Source: a virus. From it: 34,057 nt of DNA. The notes beneath the pieces are model-generated. The model was given only the letters and a program-made list of their open reading frames with translations. It did no database searches and was not told the origin of the DNA. How positions within the stretch are numbered: position 1 is the first letter of the stretch; each line of letters starts with the position of its first letter. Made by a program: the position numbers and the translations under genes. The stretch covers positions 1 to 34,057 of the IMG/VR virus record IMGVR_UViG_3300032073_000109. The stretch is one strand, 5' to 3'. Of the stretch, positions 23,721 to 33,846 are shown piece after piece.

Positions 23721-24449
23721 CTACAAACTGTTAATCGGGTTCTCCGCTATTACTGTGGCTATCTCAAAATCAAGATTAAAGGAAACCTCGTTGGGCTGCT
23801 CACCACTGAATGTCGTATTCAAAGAGCGAATGAAGCCAGTCATACCCAAGAGGTCTTCAGCCTCTGCCATATTACTGAAAGCCTCTAATGGTGACTCATC
23901 TATCTCTAGAGCAGATGGCAGGTAGTTGTTCGCTGTTCTCTTGAATTTCTCATCATATCTTCTGTTCTCAAAGGTGAATGGTATCTGAGGAAGCGCATTG
24001 ATATCATCTGATTCACTTGTATTTGTGTGTGGTAGAAAGTTAGTATCTACTCTGCTAGGTATTAGAATAATCAGTTTGTTCATTGCTTGGTCATCCTGTG
24101 CTGCACTGCTATCGACATAGGAGTGAATCAACTGTGCCATCTCAAAGGGCGATAGAGTAGGATGAACAACTGTCTCCCCTGAGTTCTTGGATAGTTTCTG
24201 ATTCAAGAAAACACCAGTCAAACTAACCGTCTTGCTTGCTAATCCCATATCAAAGGCCAGTGTCTCAGACTTTCCAGTTCCTATACTTGCAAACGGAACA
24301 GGAATAGTCGGAACGCTCTTGGATGTGGCTATCTGAATCTCAGTCACAAACAAGGGTATTCTGTTGATTGCCCTATCTCCGCCTTCTTCATTCCTTCTTT
24401 GTAGTTCCAGCCAAACGCTGAAGTTCGTATAATTGTCTCCTACTCCCAT
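23721..24449 (-). CDS. Probable distal tail (Dit-like) protein
   Basis: 242 residues. The ATG at 24449 overlaps the tape measure stop (TAATG), so translation is probably coupled. The N-terminal half is beta-rich (FSVWLELQRRN, IPLFVTEIQIATSK, PVPFASIGTGKSETLAFDMG, KTVSLTGVFLNQKLS), as expected for a ring-forming tail protein domain related to the tube. The C-terminal part ends with strands (GFIRSLNTTFSG, EVSFNLDFEIATVIAE). No signal peptide or membrane segment is visible. In siphoviruses the gene after the tape measure normally encodes Dit, the hexameric ring between tube and hub, and the next large genes here are tip proteins. The call rests on position plus general fold appearance, not on a diagnostic motif. 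It could be another baseplate or hub-associated protein. Confidence 0.5.
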   Translation of the reverse strand: MGVGDNYTNFSVWLELQRRNEEGGDRAINRIPLFVTEIQIATSKSVPTIPVPFASIGTGKSETLAFDMGLASKTVSLTGVFLNQKLSKNSGETVVHPTLSPFEMAQLIHSYVDSSAAQDDQAMNKLIILIPSRVDTNFLPHTNTSESDDINALPQIPFTFENRRYDEKFKRTANNYLPSALEIDESPLEAFSNMAEAEDLLGMTGFIRSLNTTFSGEQPNEVSFNLDFEIATVIAENPINSL

Positions 24450-26416
24450 TAGAATCTCACCACCGATGTTGCTGTTCTATTCATTCTTGAGTTGATTTCC
24501 TTCGCTACCTTGTTTGCTATATCTCTTATCTCAGTATCATTTGCACCAACTCTACCAGTTACCTGAACAGTGATATGATTGTTTATCGTAGTCCCACCAC
24601 TCATCATAGCAGCAGAGTCTCTGTTTGAACTGACTCTAGCACCTGCTGGAAGGTTGACCAACTCCGGTCCTCTTTCTCCAACAACTGCTATTCCTGAATC
24701 CTTTATCGCTCCACCAGTTGCCAAGAACGGTATCTTTTTTGCTATTCCTTTTATTGCATCACTGGGCTTTGGTATCTTGTCAAATATTTCTGATACTGCT
24801 TCCTTTATTCCTCGGATTAAGTCTCCAAGGAAAGAATTCATAACTTTGTCTTTGAAATCCTGAACGAAATCTAGATTGTTTATCCAACTAACTATTCCGG
24901 TTATTAGGGAAACGAGAGGGTCTATTGCGAAATATAACACAGTGGCAATACCTGCTACTAGTAAAGCAGGAAGAGCAAAGGTAGCACCAACTAGCAAGCC
25001 AATCGTACCTACAACCAATGCTATTGCTGCAACTACACCCGATACACCTTTGATTACATTACCAACTCCACCAATGATACCGTTTAGTCCACCACCTAAT
25101 TTATTGAAGCCATCCATGAACAGACTGCTGACGAATCCCCAAATACCTGCTAATAGAGTTCCTACTGTTGCACTTAGAAGACCAACCAGTAATCCGAGGA
25201 AACCAACTACTATTCCGCCTATACCTTCTGCTATCTGCATAAAATCCATGTTCATTATTCCTGAGACTACGTTATACACACCAGTTCCTATTGCCGATAA
25301 TGAGTCATAGACTAACCCTAGACTTGCCATGAATACACTTGCCATTGTTTTGATACCATCGTATATGTTACCCAAGAAAGGTTGAATGAACTTGAAGGCT
25401 GCAACTACCACCATAAGAAGCAGAAGCATCTTCATGAATTGTGCAGCAGCATAGAATACCATTTTGACTATACCAGCCGCTATTGACTTTAGAGCCTTGA
25501 AGGGTGCTTTGAGCATACCCATCATCTTTGCTCTCATACCATTTTGCTTCTTAGTCATCTTTGCAAGTTCGTTTAATTTGTCAAACTGCCTAGAACTTAT
25601 TCTCTGACCCTTGGCATTGAACCTATACAGTTTCCCATCTTTTCCTTGAGTTTCTCTTGGGGCTGCGACCTTTCCTGATTTGTCTAGTAATCCCTCTGTA
25701 TCTACCCCTAACTTACCTGCTTTCTTCTTCATCGCTTCAGTAATCTTGAGTTCCTTGTCTTTACCAAACATATACTGTTTGAGTTCCTTCTTGTTCAACA
25801 TCTCCTTGAACGCACTGAAAGACTTCTGTGCATTCGTTAGTCCTGAATAGTGTTTCATCTTCTCTTTGAAACCAGCCTTCTCAAAATCTAAGGATGCCTT
25901 CGCTGCATCTTGTATCTTCTTAGTTGCATCCACTTGGTCTTGTGTTATTTCTTGCAATACTCTTGCAGCCTTATTCGCATCGTTGTACTTGAACATCAAC
26001 CCTGAGAATATCTCTGACCTCTTCTCCAAGTCAGCGATTTCTTCTTGAGATATCTTACTGCCTTTTTCGATGAATACGTTTAGTTCCTCATTCAACTCAT
26101 TGATTTCTTTTTGGGACTTAGCCAACTCTGCATATTGCTTCAGTTGTTCTGCTTGCTTCAGCCTTGCTTTTTCCGATGTGCTGAGATACTCGTTCAGAAG
26201 CATCACGCTTGCTTTCACTCGATTCTGTAATCTCCAAAGGGGAGTTCCCGATATGAAACGGGAGAAGATAACCCAATTGGTGCTTTTTAGTATGTCATTC
26301 GTACTGCTAACGGAAGCCTGTAATTTTCTGAAATGTTTTGAACCGTCAAGTATCGCTCTATCAATGCCTTCAAACTTAGACTTAATCTCATTGATTTCCT
26401 TGTTGACATCACTCAT
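24449..26416 (-). CDS. Tape measure protein
   Basis: 655 residues from ATG 26416. The first ~230 residues are charged and helical with coiled-coil character (EKARLKQAEQLKQYAELAKS, EINELNEELNVFIEKG). Strongly hydrophobic segments lie near residues 312-345, 397-435 and 457-510. The C-terminus carries the motif common in tape measure proteins: FLATGGAIKD, VVGERGPELVNLPAGARV (about 575-592), then INNHITVQVTGRV and NKVAKEINSRMNR. The protein sets tail length, sits inside the tube, and may leave through the membrane during genome entry. At the usual ~0.15 nm per residue it would imply a tail of roughly 100 nm. It follows the chaperone pair, the standard order. Confidence 0.93.
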   Translation of the reverse strand: MSDVNKEINEIKSKFEGIDRAILDGSKHFRKLQASVSSTNDILKSTNWVIFSRFISGTPLWRLQNRVKASVMLLNEYLSTSEKARLKQAEQLKQYAELAKSQKEINELNEELNVFIEKGSKISQEEIADLEKRSEIFSGLMFKYNDANKAARVLQEITQDQVDATKKIQDAAKASLDFEKAGFKEKMKHYSGLTNAQKSFSAFKEMLNKKELKQYMFGKDKELKITEAMKKKAGKLGVDTEGLLDKSGKVAAPRETQGKDGKLYRFNAKGQRISSRQFDKLNELAKMTKKQNGMRAKMMGMLKAPFKALKSIAAGIVKMVFYAAAQFMKMLLLLMVVVAAFKFIQPFLGNIYDGIKTMASVFMASLGLVYDSLSAIGTGVYNVVSGIMNMDFMQIAEGIGGIVVGFLGLLVGLLSATVGTLLAGIWGFVSSLFMDGFNKLGGGLNGIIGGVGNVIKGVSGVVAAIALVVGTIGLLVGATFALPALLVAGIATVLYFAIDPLVSLITGIVSWINNLDFVQDFKDKVMNSFLGDLIRGIKEAVSEIFDKIPKPSDAIKGIAKKIPFLATGGAIKDSGIAVVGERGPELVNLPAGARVSSNRDSAAMMSGGTTINNHITVQVTGRVGANDTEIRDIANKVAKEINSRMNRTATSVVRF

Positions 26417-26421
26417 TTACT

Positions 26422-26634
26422 TCACGACCCTTTTGATGCCTTATTCATTTCCTCCGATTCTATCTTCTTTACTTCCCCATGTATCTCTAGCATCTCTTTA
26501 ATCAAGGATGCTGGTGTTTCATATGCGTCTTTTGGGTCAACGTGGAATGCCGAGCAATAGGAGTAAAGCATAATCTTCATCCCCACTCTTGTATCCACGC
26601 TCCCACCTTTCAAAGCCCTCCGAATCAGTTTTCG
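26422..26634 (-). CDS. Tail assembly chaperone, -1 frameshift extension (gpT-like part of gpGT)
   Basis: This segment is read in the -1 frame relative to the preceding chaperone gene. It continues from the slippery GGGAAAC and yields RKLIRRALKGGS and onward, ending LEIHGEVKKIESEEMNKASK. It adds 70 residues, for a fusion of about 190. As a separate gene it would need a TTG start at 26613 without a convincing ribosome site, so I treat it as the frameshift product. Short helical sequence such as KIMLYSYCSAF, then ASLIKEMLEIHGEV, resembles the second part of phage tail chaperones. These fusions bind the tape measure and recruit tube protein during assembly, and are absent from finished virions. 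It ends 5 nt before the tape measure start. Confidence 0.8.
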   Translation of the reverse strand, partial: RKLIRRALKGGSVDTRVGMKIMLYSYCSAFHVDPKDAYETPASLIKEMLEIHGEVKKIESEEMNKASKGS

Positions 26635-26993
26635 TTTCCCGTATCATCCCCCATGATGTCCATGAAGGGATTTGGGAGTATTTCTTTTAGTTGCGCCCCG
26701 ATGTACGGGTTGAGTCTGATTAAATCGGTAGCAGATAGTTGAGGGTCTGTCTTCTCTACGAAGTTCTCAACCATAAAGCGATACATCTTGTTAAGGTTGA
26801 TTCCCATAGTCTGACCTTGGGAATCCATATCCATAACAGACGACAATGCCTGTTCTACCTGTAACCAAGTTGGTTCTTTTACCCAAACTTGGAGGTATTC
26901 ATCACTATCAGGGCCAACCCTGAGATGATGGCTTTCGGTTGCCATTCTTGCGAACAGCGTATTCTTATCATTTACAATTTTTTTTTCTGTCAT
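26625..26993 (-). CDS. Tail assembly chaperone (gpG-like)
   Basis: 122 residues from ATG 26993, chosen because AGGTGG lies 8 nt upstream. The longer frame begins with GTG at 27005, inside or before that site. The protein is soluble, without signal or membrane segments, and helical, with MATESHHLRVGPDSDEYLQV, WLQVEQALSSVMDMD, MYRFMVENFVEKTD and LKEILPNPFMDIMGDD. Its position between the tail tube and tape measure genes, plus the frameshift site two codons before its end, matches the chaperone G of long-tailed phages. A share of ribosomes would slip to make the extended form. The role is established for the family; sequence similarity itself was not tested. Confidence 0.85.
   Translation of the reverse strand: MTEKKIVNDKNTLFARMATESHHLRVGPDSDEYLQVWVKEPTWLQVEQALSSVMDMDSQGQTMGINLNKMYRFMVENFVEKTDPQLSATDLIRLNPYIGAQLKEILPNPFMDIMGDDTGNEN
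26634..26640 (-). promoter_or_regulatory. -1 programmed frameshift slippery heptamer GGGAAAC
   Basis: Read on the minus strand, the zero-frame codons are ACG GGA AAC GAA AAC TGA. The heptamer G GGA AAC fits the X XXY YYZ rule exactly and differs only in the last base from phage lambda's GGGAAAG. Slipping back one base moves ribosomes into the frame of the downstream 70-residue extension. The zero-frame stop comes 6 nt after the heptamer. A small hairpin (cgaa, 6-nt loop, ttcg) follows immediately; a stronger stimulator is not obvious. Confidence 0.85.
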
Positions 26994-27016
26994 TTTTCTT
27001 TCCACCTACAAAACTA

Positions 27017-27081: not shown

Positions 27082-28650
27082 CTAATTACCTGTTGCCTGA
27101 CCGCCGAGGTTGTAAATTGCCCACTTTCCAGTGTAGTTGCATGAATTCAAGGTTCTAGCAGAAGCAGTTACCTCTACTTCCACTGCACCCTTGTCTTCAG
27201 GGAAAGGCACGTTTACTGAATTTATTATGTAGTCTGCAAATTGCAAGTCTATCTTCTCACCACTATCTTTCTCAAACTTCAATCGTAGAGTACCAGTTGA
27301 CTCATTAGCACTTCTCATCTCATCCCAAAGTTTCGTATCTGTGATTAACATGTTTAGACTGAGTTCATATGTTCTCTGTCCGGGTATGTGGGCAGACATG
27401 GTTTGCCTGTTGTAGTTGCCAATGAATCTCTGAGGTGTCAGGTTGTTTGCTATCGTTAGAGAACCACTCTTGACTCTAGCCATAGACTGACCGAATAGTG
27501 TGATAGTTCCATCCGAGAATAGGAATGGGTAATTGTCAGTCAGTGTTGCACTGTAATTATGCATACCAGTTCCTCCTGATGTGTTTGATGGAGCAGATAA
27601 GTCAGCACCGTTTCCTCCTAGTGGTATGTATCCATTAGGTGCATCGAATGCTCTTCTTGTTACTAGTTCTACACTTGACTTGAGTTCTTGTCCCTCTTCA
27701 AAGTTGAGTGCTAGGCTGTTTACTTGACATCCTGTGAAGATTCTAGAGTACATGTTCTCATTCGGTGTGAGTGAGTCTAGTGCAGAAGATGTAGCACTAC
27801 TACCTGCTTTCCTGTATACCACGTCAAGAGCGAAGGACGGTAGAACATCATTATCTGCTTCTTCAATAGTGTAACTGAATGTAGCACCGTTGTCATTGAA
27901 TGGTACACTAGCAGGGTCTACTATGTCTTCATCAGCACCGTCAGAACCATCGAATATCTCAGGATACATATTCTGTCCTATTACTCTAACAAGTTTCCTA
28001 CCACTACTAGTTCCAACAGTGAATCCTACTCCGTTCTGTGAGCCACTAGCACCTGAGTTTGAACCACTAGCACCTGCTGTAACTGCTAGGTTTGTTATCT
28101 TACCAAGAGTGTAATACAACCAAGACCCGTTGTTCAGGGATAGGTCGAGTGAGCCACCACTGACTGTCTCTGCTCCCTTGTACTGGTAATCGAAGTTCCT
28201 ACCACCAGCAACTGCTAGATTGAGTTGCTTCATTTCCACCTCTACGTTAGGTGGAGTGAATGTGTTGACAAGTCCTACCCAGTTATCTGATTGAATCAAA
28301 GGAGAACCCCCTGATGTCTTCTTTGCGTAGGCAGGTGCGCCGAATGCCATTATAGTTAGATTGTGAGTGTTAGTTCCACTTGAAGTAACGGCAGCATCTA
28401 GGGTAATTGTATTGGTAGTATTGGATACTACCATCCTGTATTCTGTCTCGTTATCAGAAGCGTTCAGGTCTACTTTAGCCATGCATCCAGCATATAGGTC
28501 TGCAACAAGTAACGTATCTCCTTGTTGTCCACTTGATAGTGTGAATAATGTCTTGGCAGCATCAACACTACCTTTCGGGAAAAACAAATCTAACTCAGGA
28601 CAAAAACCTACTTGTGCATTAGCACCTACAAATACTTCATTACTTACCAT
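27082..28650 (-). CDS. Major tail tube protein
   Basis: 522 residues, ATG at 28650 with GAGGG about 7 nt upstream. The protein is beta-rich and acidic with few lysines. The region at residues 365-425 (TLTDNYPFLFSDGTITLFGQ, ARVKSGSLTIANNLTPQRFI, MSAHIPGQRTYELSLNMLI) resembles the phage tail tube family with a VKSGSLTIxNNL-type strand. Gene order (after neck genes, directly before the tail chaperones) is where major tail proteins lie. It is longer than typical tube subunits (about 150-350 residues), so it probably carries extra surface domains: a Gly/Ser/Ala-rich stretch lies around residues 190-215 (TAGASGSNSGASGSQNGVG). It should form stacked rings around the tape measure. There is no neighbouring sheath gene, so the tail is probably non-contractile. 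Confidence 0.82.
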   Translation of the reverse strand: MVSNEVFVGANAQVGFCPELDLFFPKGSVDAAKTLFTLSSGQQGDTLLVADLYAGCMAKVDLNASDNETEYRMVVSNTTNTITLDAAVTSSGTNTHNLTIMAFGAPAYAKKTSGGSPLIQSDNWVGLVNTFTPPNVEVEMKQLNLAVAGGRNFDYQYKGAETVSGGSLDLSLNNGSWLYYTLGKITNLAVTAGASGSNSGASGSQNGVGFTVGTSSGRKLVRVIGQNMYPEIFDGSDGADEDIVDPASVPFNDNGATFSYTIEEADNDVLPSFALDVVYRKAGSSATSSALDSLTPNENMYSRIFTGCQVNSLALNFEEGQELKSSVELVTRRAFDAPNGYIPLGGNGADLSAPSNTSGGTGMHNYSATLTDNYPFLFSDGTITLFGQSMARVKSGSLTIANNLTPQRFIGNYNRQTMSAHIPGQRTYELSLNMLITDTKLWDEMRSANESTGTLRLKFEKDSGEKIDLQFADYIINSVNVPFPEDKGAVEVEVTASARTLNSCNYTGKWAIYNLGGQATGN

Positions 28651-33174: not shown

Positions 33175-33846
33175 CTAGTAGTCTTTTATCATTGTTAGGA
33201 TTCCTCGATAAACCATTTCAGAATCTGACTTAGCACTGACAATGTATTTGTGGCAAGGAATACCAGCATCGTTTAGTTTCTGCAAACCGGGTTTAAATGA
33301 TTCAAAAATTGGATGGTTCTCTATCTTACCGTCATGAGGATACTTGTCTTTCCATAAGTCATACTTGTTAGCCCATAACCCAACCGCTACTGGAAAGTCA
33401 TGGTATTGCTTTTTCTTCTTCCTACCACCAGTCTCCCAATACTTATTGCAGATTGTATCTACTAGAAACGTCCAACATAGTTGTTGCTCAATGTCATAGT
33501 GCTTGCTTAGATGTCTATCATCGAACATGAATATGATATATTTCACATGCCTACTACGCATGTCCTTTACCCATTCACCCCAGTATACTGTCTGACCACC
33601 TATATCTGCTGTCTTCACAGTATGTGCATCACCATCAATCTTCACGAATTTTCTACTTGCTCTATGTCTGCCTACTGTTCTCTTTGCTATTTCAGGAACT
33701 TCCCCTCTAGTCATCAGTTGCTTATGCAGCGTAGTTTTACCTGCTTGACTAGCACCGTAGACTCCGAAATTAATAGCATGAAGTCGGTTATACAGTTTAT
33801 TCATGGCTTCAACCATTAGTATTGCAAACCCTGCCATTACCGACAT
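33175..33846 (-). CDS. Arf/Ras-like small GTPase
   Basis: 223 residues, ATG at 33846 with GAGGTGA 4 nt upstream. All five GTPase boxes are present: G1 GASQAGKT (31-38), a candidate G2 Thr57, G3 DIGGQ (81-85, with the catalytic-type Gln), G4 NKYD (160-163) and G5 SAK (204-206). The DIGGQ and the TLHKQLMT helix look most like Arf/SR-beta-type enzymes or bacterial MglA. Residues 3-13 (VMAGFAILMVE) are hydrophobic, like the membrane-touching N-terminal helix of Arf. A basic loop, GRKKKKQ, lies at 141-147. It probably binds and hydrolyses GTP. Its partner and purpose are unknown. It is unusual beside a tail-assembly operon and may be a host-derived gene or a virion-assembly factor. Confidence 0.88.
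   Translation of the reverse strand: MSVMAGFAILMVEAMNKLYNRLHAINFGVYGASQAGKTTLHKQLMTRGEVPEIAKRTVGRHRASRKFVKIDGDAHTVKTADIGGQTVYWGEWVKDMRSRHVKYIIFMFDDRHLSKHYDIEQQLCWTFLVDTICNKYWETGGRKKKKQYHDFPVAVGLWANKYDLWKDKYPHDGKIENHPIFESFKPGLQKLNDAGIPCHKYIVSAKSDSEMVYRGILTMIKDY

Follow-up and report, generated by a model that had tools for sequence, protein, structure and literature searches.

A Shine–Dalgarno-like element and a conserved slippery heptamer at the probable −1 frameshift joining two tail assembly chaperone frames in a family of putative archaeal viruses

The comparative analysis presented here indicates that two overlapping reading frames in the window, the whole 34,057-nucleotide stretch of viral DNA analysed (IMG/VR record IMGVR_UViG_3300032073_000109, a virus record of its own), are very probably a single gene that encodes a tail assembly chaperone pair and is expressed by −1 frameshifting like the lambda G/GT gene. 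Few cases of programmed −1 frameshifting are known in archaea, namely a single Sulfolobus gene, a few halovirus chaperones and a chelatase in which it is suspected. The family described here, with at least 93 distinct sequences from apparently archaeal viruses, varies naturally in heptamer type, stop distance and hairpin, and thereby offers a ready-made mutational series on how archaeal ribosomes slip and on whether pairing with the anti-Shine–Dalgarno (anti-SD) sequence stimulates this. The case draws its interest from the Shine–Dalgarno (SD)-like element in an archaeal setting and from the modular signal, and it corrects the annotation of a widespread virus group in which T risks being overlooked or taken for a gene of its own. 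The features of the window are as follows.

26625 to 26993, minus strand: G frame, 122-residue tail assembly chaperone, start ATG at 26993, stop TGA at 26627–26625
26422 to 26640, minus strand: T frame (−1), read as GKRKLIRRALKGG...KGS, stop TAA at 26424–26422
26634 to 26640, minus strand: slippery heptamer G_GGA_AAC, read at base level
26644 to 26646, minus strand: TGA closing the −1 frame just 5′ of the heptamer, which confines the shift to the overlap
26648 to 26652, minus strand: SD-like GGGGG, 7 bases 5′ of the heptamer (GGRGG in relatives)
26572 to 26625, minus strand: position of the 3′ hairpin of most relatives, absent from the window's own subclade
24449 to 26416, minus strand: tape measure protein (phrog_991, tail length tape measure, E = 2.5e-13)
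27082 to 28650, minus strand: tail tube protein, the gene directly upstream (Phage_tube_2, E = 1.3e-16)

The minus strand at the site reads GGG GAT GAT ACG GGA AAC GAA AAC TGA. An earlier sequence-only reading had placed GGGAAAC two codons before the stop of a 122-residue gene and a 70-residue second frame at exactly −1 to it, and both statements hold base by base, with the second frame opening just 5′ of the heptamer and ending at its TAA. Because the −1 frame is closed by the TGA at 26646–26644, its open overlap with the 0 frame, which runs up to the 0-frame stop and contains the heptamer, spans only 16 bases; slippage at the heptamer yields a product of 120 + 70 = 190 residues. Across the window's genes, 23 of 8787 codon pairs bear an in-frame X_XXY_YYZ heptamer and 10 of 8787 an A/G_XXA_AAN, frequencies that make a heptamer within this overlap about a 1% coincidence in one genome. 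The ATG at 26993 stands 8 bases 3′ of a GGTGG and is the better start for G, since the GTG at 27005 falls inside that Shine–Dalgarno sequence. GGTGG-type sequences likewise precede most G starts in the family, from which these viruses appear to use SD initiation. The tape measure gene starts 5 bases past the T stop.

The chaperone identity of both frames, as the sequence-only reading had proposed, is supported by the agreement of protein families, gene order and the predicted fold of G. Both products match tail assembly chaperone families, that of the 0 frame phrog_25860 and that of the −1 frame phrog_9001, each at E = 1.9e-5, and the gene sits between those for the tail tube (Phage_tube_2) and the tape measure protein. 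An AlphaFold model of G (pLDDT 81) matches the tail assembly chaperone of HHTV-2 in BFVD (TM 0.73, E 7.9e-7), with weaker fold matches to chaperones of a Bacillus phage, HCTV-2 and Mu (FS-gp41). T is predicted to be all-helical (pLDDT 93) and has no BFVD match below E 0.001. For G neither Pfam nor the PDB gave a significant match; nothing significant came from PDB sequence or Foldseek searches, and when G and T were run directly by tblastn against phage records, no match appeared. Elsewhere in the window, upstream of the tail genes, positions 33175–33846 encode a small Ras/Roc-like GTPase with the P-loop GASQAGKT (Pfam Roc, E 8e-5, below cut-off), carried here by what appears to be an archaeal tailed virus.

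Relatives of the gene were gathered from IMG/VR viral contigs by single-protein and profile searches, the census taking the best 80 of the 315–341 relatives found in each G-profile scan. It comprises 320 loci in which both halves were found, counted as loci and not as viruses since some contigs entered more than once; these reduce to 149 distinct sequences around the site and to 93 non-redundant representatives. The alignment of related contigs that the sequence-only reading had proposed thus gave a uniform result: in 320 of 320 loci T is in the −1 frame and the overlap contains an X_XXA_AAN heptamer in frame. In none of these loci is the second frame retained without a slippery heptamer, and in none do the two parts form separate genes lying in another frame. 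The remaining loci are truncations at contig edges, plus one (L135, 2988–3500) with an internal deletion and a stop in the T frame downstream of an intact GGGAAAC, in which T would be either a broken copy or an assembly error. Conservation of the heptamer, which had been put forward as a check, was borne out for the slippery type and not for GGGAAAC itself: the 93 representatives carry seven types, namely AAAAAAC (39), GGGAAAC (32), GGGAAAA (11), GGGAAAT (4), AAAAAAA (4), GGGAAAG (2) and AAAAAAG (1), and on the G tree the type must have changed between GGG and AAA at least four times. Two chaperone-bearing contigs stand out for other reasons. One (NZMJ01000011.1), the only match in genome_contigs, is filed as a Maricaulis MAG and is probably a misbinned archaeal virus contig, and another (IMGVR_UViG_3300021958_000021), with 184,733 bases about twice the usual 90–100 kb, is possibly a duplication or concatemer, or a larger relative.

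The same comparison bears on two other accounts of the broken frame. From a single metagenomic contig one might suspect gene decay or an error of sequencing or assembly, and the relatives refute this to the point where its probability is negligible: the same −1 relation recurs in the 320 loci with their 149 distinct site sequences, and the protein sequence is conserved in each of the two frames. Production of T as a separate protein from an internal start, with the heptamer incidental, is very improbable. The first possible starts in the −1 frame are TTG 26613, GTG 26598, GTG 26586 and ATG 26580, all within the conserved T domain. The GTG at 26598, which follows GGTGGGAGC and lies four bases past a GGTGG, would be one candidate and TTG 26613 another, and an SD-like stretch around +30 to +38 recurs in relatives. 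Against this, the codon aligned with GTG 26598 encodes Val in 36 of 93 representatives and is then mostly GTA or GTT, and within the first 21 T codons 22 of the 93 have no ATG, GTG or TTG and 50 have no ATG or GTG. T is moreover conserved from the residue right after the slip, and an internal start leaves the heptamers of all 320 loci unexplained. With no start codon conserved among the representatives we rejected internal initiation, and the claim of the sequence-only reading that the second frame has no good start of its own stands.

A frameshift is further argued for by the codons at the site. In all 93 representatives the base preceding the XXY codon fits that codon, and it does so through synonymous change: the codons are ACG, GAG, GCG or TCG before GGA and ACA, GAA, GCA or TCA before AAA. 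Threonine is encoded as ACG before GGA (27) and as ACA before AAA (2), glutamate as GAG before GGA (5) and as GAA before AAA (33), and alanine and serine behave alike. The XXY column shows the highest excess of synonymous codon identity among 113 columns (1.00 observed vs 0.40 expected). This tracking of the XXY codon by the X base is what tandem tRNA slippage requires, and it counts against a change of frame by transcriptional realignment of RNA polymerase. The AAAAAAA(C) runs of about half of the relatives could promote such transcript slippage, whereas GGGAAAN, in which runs of identical bases are short, is found in the window and in 49 of the 93 representatives, and the SD-like element and the 3′ hairpin are features that would act on ribosomes; we consider polymerase slippage very improbable. 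Taken with the families, gene order, predicted fold and uniform conservation, these observations give good support to the −1 frameshift interpretation, and from them we infer that it is the ribosome that slips.

The second-highest excess of synonymous identity in the gene belongs to the codon bearing the SD-like GGRGG, 7 bases upstream of the heptamer. At this codon glycine is GGG in 52 of 56 cases (GGG makes up 16% of Gly codons in the gene) and glutamate is GAG in 33 of 34 (GAG, 19% of Glu codons); the third base is G in 95% of these codons, as against at most half elsewhere in the gene except at the neighbouring codon. The ten-base segment whose 3′ end lies 3 bases short of the heptamer pairs with the archaeal anti-SD at a mean of −9.9 kcal/mol, compared with −0.9 for the background of the region and −7.5 for G starts, the anti-SD letters used being general archaeal ones and not those of a Poseidoniales genome, and it is the strongest anti-SD site within about 470 bases. 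We infer that the element stimulates slippage, with the reserve that SD stimulators of bacterial −1 sites are reported to need a spacing of 9–14 bases (PMC5009743). The spacing of 7, outside that range, together with the conservation of the acidic residues, is what would favour reading GGRGG as a by-product of coding for Gly/Glu-Asp-Asp, with the heptamer (and the hairpin where present) doing the work; the near-exclusive use of GGG and GAG and the synonymous excess argue against that reading, and we hold it to be unlikely. A second SD-like purine stretch (AAAGGTGG/AAAGGAGG, coding for KGG) lies at 26600–26612 on the minus strand of the window and at about +30 to +38 in relatives; situated some 30 bases past the heptamer, it may reflect an LKGG motif only.

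In the average over all representatives, folding stability in 60-base segments of the region is greatest for those beginning directly 3′ of the heptamer. In the clade with AAA heptamers a helix pairs columns 9–16 with 48–55 and encloses an inner helix, with 78% of cells paired and 67 cells changed on both sides compared with 26 ± 6 in shuffles, the pairing register having been fixed by inspection and the pairs then counted on those same sequences. The covariation score was reached by 0 of 500 shuffles, sliding the partner strand destroyed the helix, and the clade folds more strongly than synonymous recodings (mean z −3.5; 39 of 44 sequences below −1.5). A 23-sequence part of the other GGG sequences carries a similar hairpin with different spacing, and over all 39 of these GGG sequences the mean z against synonymous recoding is −1.7. 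RNAalifold on mixed alignments gave no or almost no structure, and Rfam returned no match. For the window's own subclade the hairpin was rejected, the 38.6% of cells paired being equal to shuffles; the window itself shows no hairpin at the usual distance (MFE z 0.1 vs synonymous recoding), and a more distal hairpin in the subclade (+30 to +92) is weak (mean z about −1 to −1.4). The hairpin thus seems to have been lost or replaced there, and since it is missing, the window's signal would consist of the SD-like element and the heptamer. The signal described in the sequence-only reading therefore proved correct in its GGGAAAC and incomplete elsewhere, as it also includes the SD-like GGRGG and, in most relatives, the hairpin. 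We give about even chances to the broader proposal that frameshifting on archaeal ribosomes is stimulated by an internal SD-like sequence placed unusually close to the heptamer, within a modular signal in which the SD-like element and heptamer are always kept, the 3′ hairpin is gained and lost, and the window's subclade works with SD and heptamer alone.

These features suggest a mechanism in which most ribosomes would terminate at the TGA at 26627 to yield the 122-residue G, and a minority would slip back one base with GGA in the P site and AAC in the A site. The slipped tRNAs would re-pair with GGG and AAA, and translation of 70 further codons would produce the 190-residue G-T fusion. The SD-like GGGGG, 7 bases upstream, probably pairs with the 3′ end of 16S rRNA and may stall or place tension on the ribosome, to which a downstream hairpin would add further stimulation in most relatives, having apparently been lost or replaced in the window's subclade. 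By analogy with lambda, G and G-T may cover the tape measure protein and bring in subunits of the tail tube, and the rate of slippage would set the ratio of G to G-T.

One pair of relatives suggests that the slip site is also a point of recombination. L021 and L024 share 98% identity over the 330 bases of G before the heptamer and 37% in T, with the breakpoint 4 bases past the heptamer. In L021 (5348–6850) neither T nor the 5′ part of the tape measure gene is related to its counterpart in L024, the region downstream matches again, and T is closest to that of the L147/L156/L157 group. T acts like a module that is attached at the slip site and can be exchanged, and in L021 the N-terminal part of the tape measure protein appears to have been transferred along with it.

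The sequence-only reading had likened the gene to the tail G/GT genes of long-tailed phages. The head and tail proteins of the family match archaeal viruses only; the window virus is, judging by these proteins, an archaeal virus and not a lambda-like phage. All 7 phage records matching the tail tube protein are haloarchaeal viruses. Among 50,697 phage records, all 11 matching the capsid protein and all 10 matching the portal protein encoded on the 84-kb contig of a close relative (L011) are archaeal, being viruses of Haloarcula, Methanomassiliicoccales and Methanofastidiosa only. The same contig encodes an ATP-dependent DNA ligase, an RFC-like ATPase and, as a weak match, a TFB zinc ribbon, and family B DNA polymerase (PolB) is present in 9 of 10 long relatives, sometimes in two pieces. 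Matches to TFIIB and MCM were weak and below curated cut-offs, and Pfam detected neither thermosome/chaperonin nor PCNA in the sampled contigs. The PolB gene varies in form, being split or stop-interrupted in several long relatives (loci L089–L093; G001–G004 and G007) and a single frame of 948–987 residues in G008–G010, among which are close relatives of the window.

These genomes look like those of magroviruses, viruses of marine Poseidoniales, which would make the latter the putative host. They share with the Magrovirales genomes of 90–100 kb, PolB (sometimes split), an RFC-like clamp loader, an ATP-dependent DNA ligase, a capsid related to those of haloviruses and an annotated TAC gene, a reference of the family Aoguangviridae carrying PolB-NTD/CTD and a TAC gene (PMC10768690), and they differ in that PCNA and chaperonin were undetected by Pfam in the sampled contigs. 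By layout the gene resembles lambda G/GT in its short chaperone, in the −1 slip on a G-run heptamer near the 3′ end, in T as an extension, and in its location between the tail tube and tape measure genes. The lambda heptamer is G_GGA_AAG, and the lambda site is not known to have an SD-like element. E. coli dnaX, with SD, A_AAA_AAG and stem-loop, has the three-part layout seen in most relatives; in this viral family, by contrast, the fusion is the longer product, the SD spacing is 7 instead of 9–14, and the window has no hairpin. Closest are the chaperones of haloarchaeal viruses (HVTV-1/HVTV-2, HCTV-1, HCTV-2 and HCTV-5), for which −1 frameshifting has already been reported (PMC5009743). HCTV-5, HVTV-2 and HCTV-1 carry joined chaperone coding sequences at the same place, that of HVTV-2 annotated as a putative −1 frameshift. 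Gene position, −1 relation and heptamer class are shared: HCTV-1 has a G_GGA_AAC identical to that of the window, HCTV-2 has A_AAA_AAC and HCTV-5 has G_GGA_AAG (PMC5009743). Their G is homologous to that of the window family by profile (E 2.4e-4), and an SD-like GGAGG or GGGGAG also precedes the heptamers of HCTV-5 and HCTV-1. The haloviruses differ in SD spacing (10 and 8 in HCTV-5 and HCTV-1, vs 7) and in the distance from heptamer to 0-frame stop (9 codons vs 2 in the window), sequence similarity is weak with no tblastn match, and the window virus is of marine type and not halophilic. The searchable literature, beyond whose reach several key papers lie, gave no report of frameshifting in magroviruses. 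The mechanism itself is known from haloarchaeal viruses; what is added here is that it extends to this family, that the SD-like element is under constraint and that the hairpin varies.
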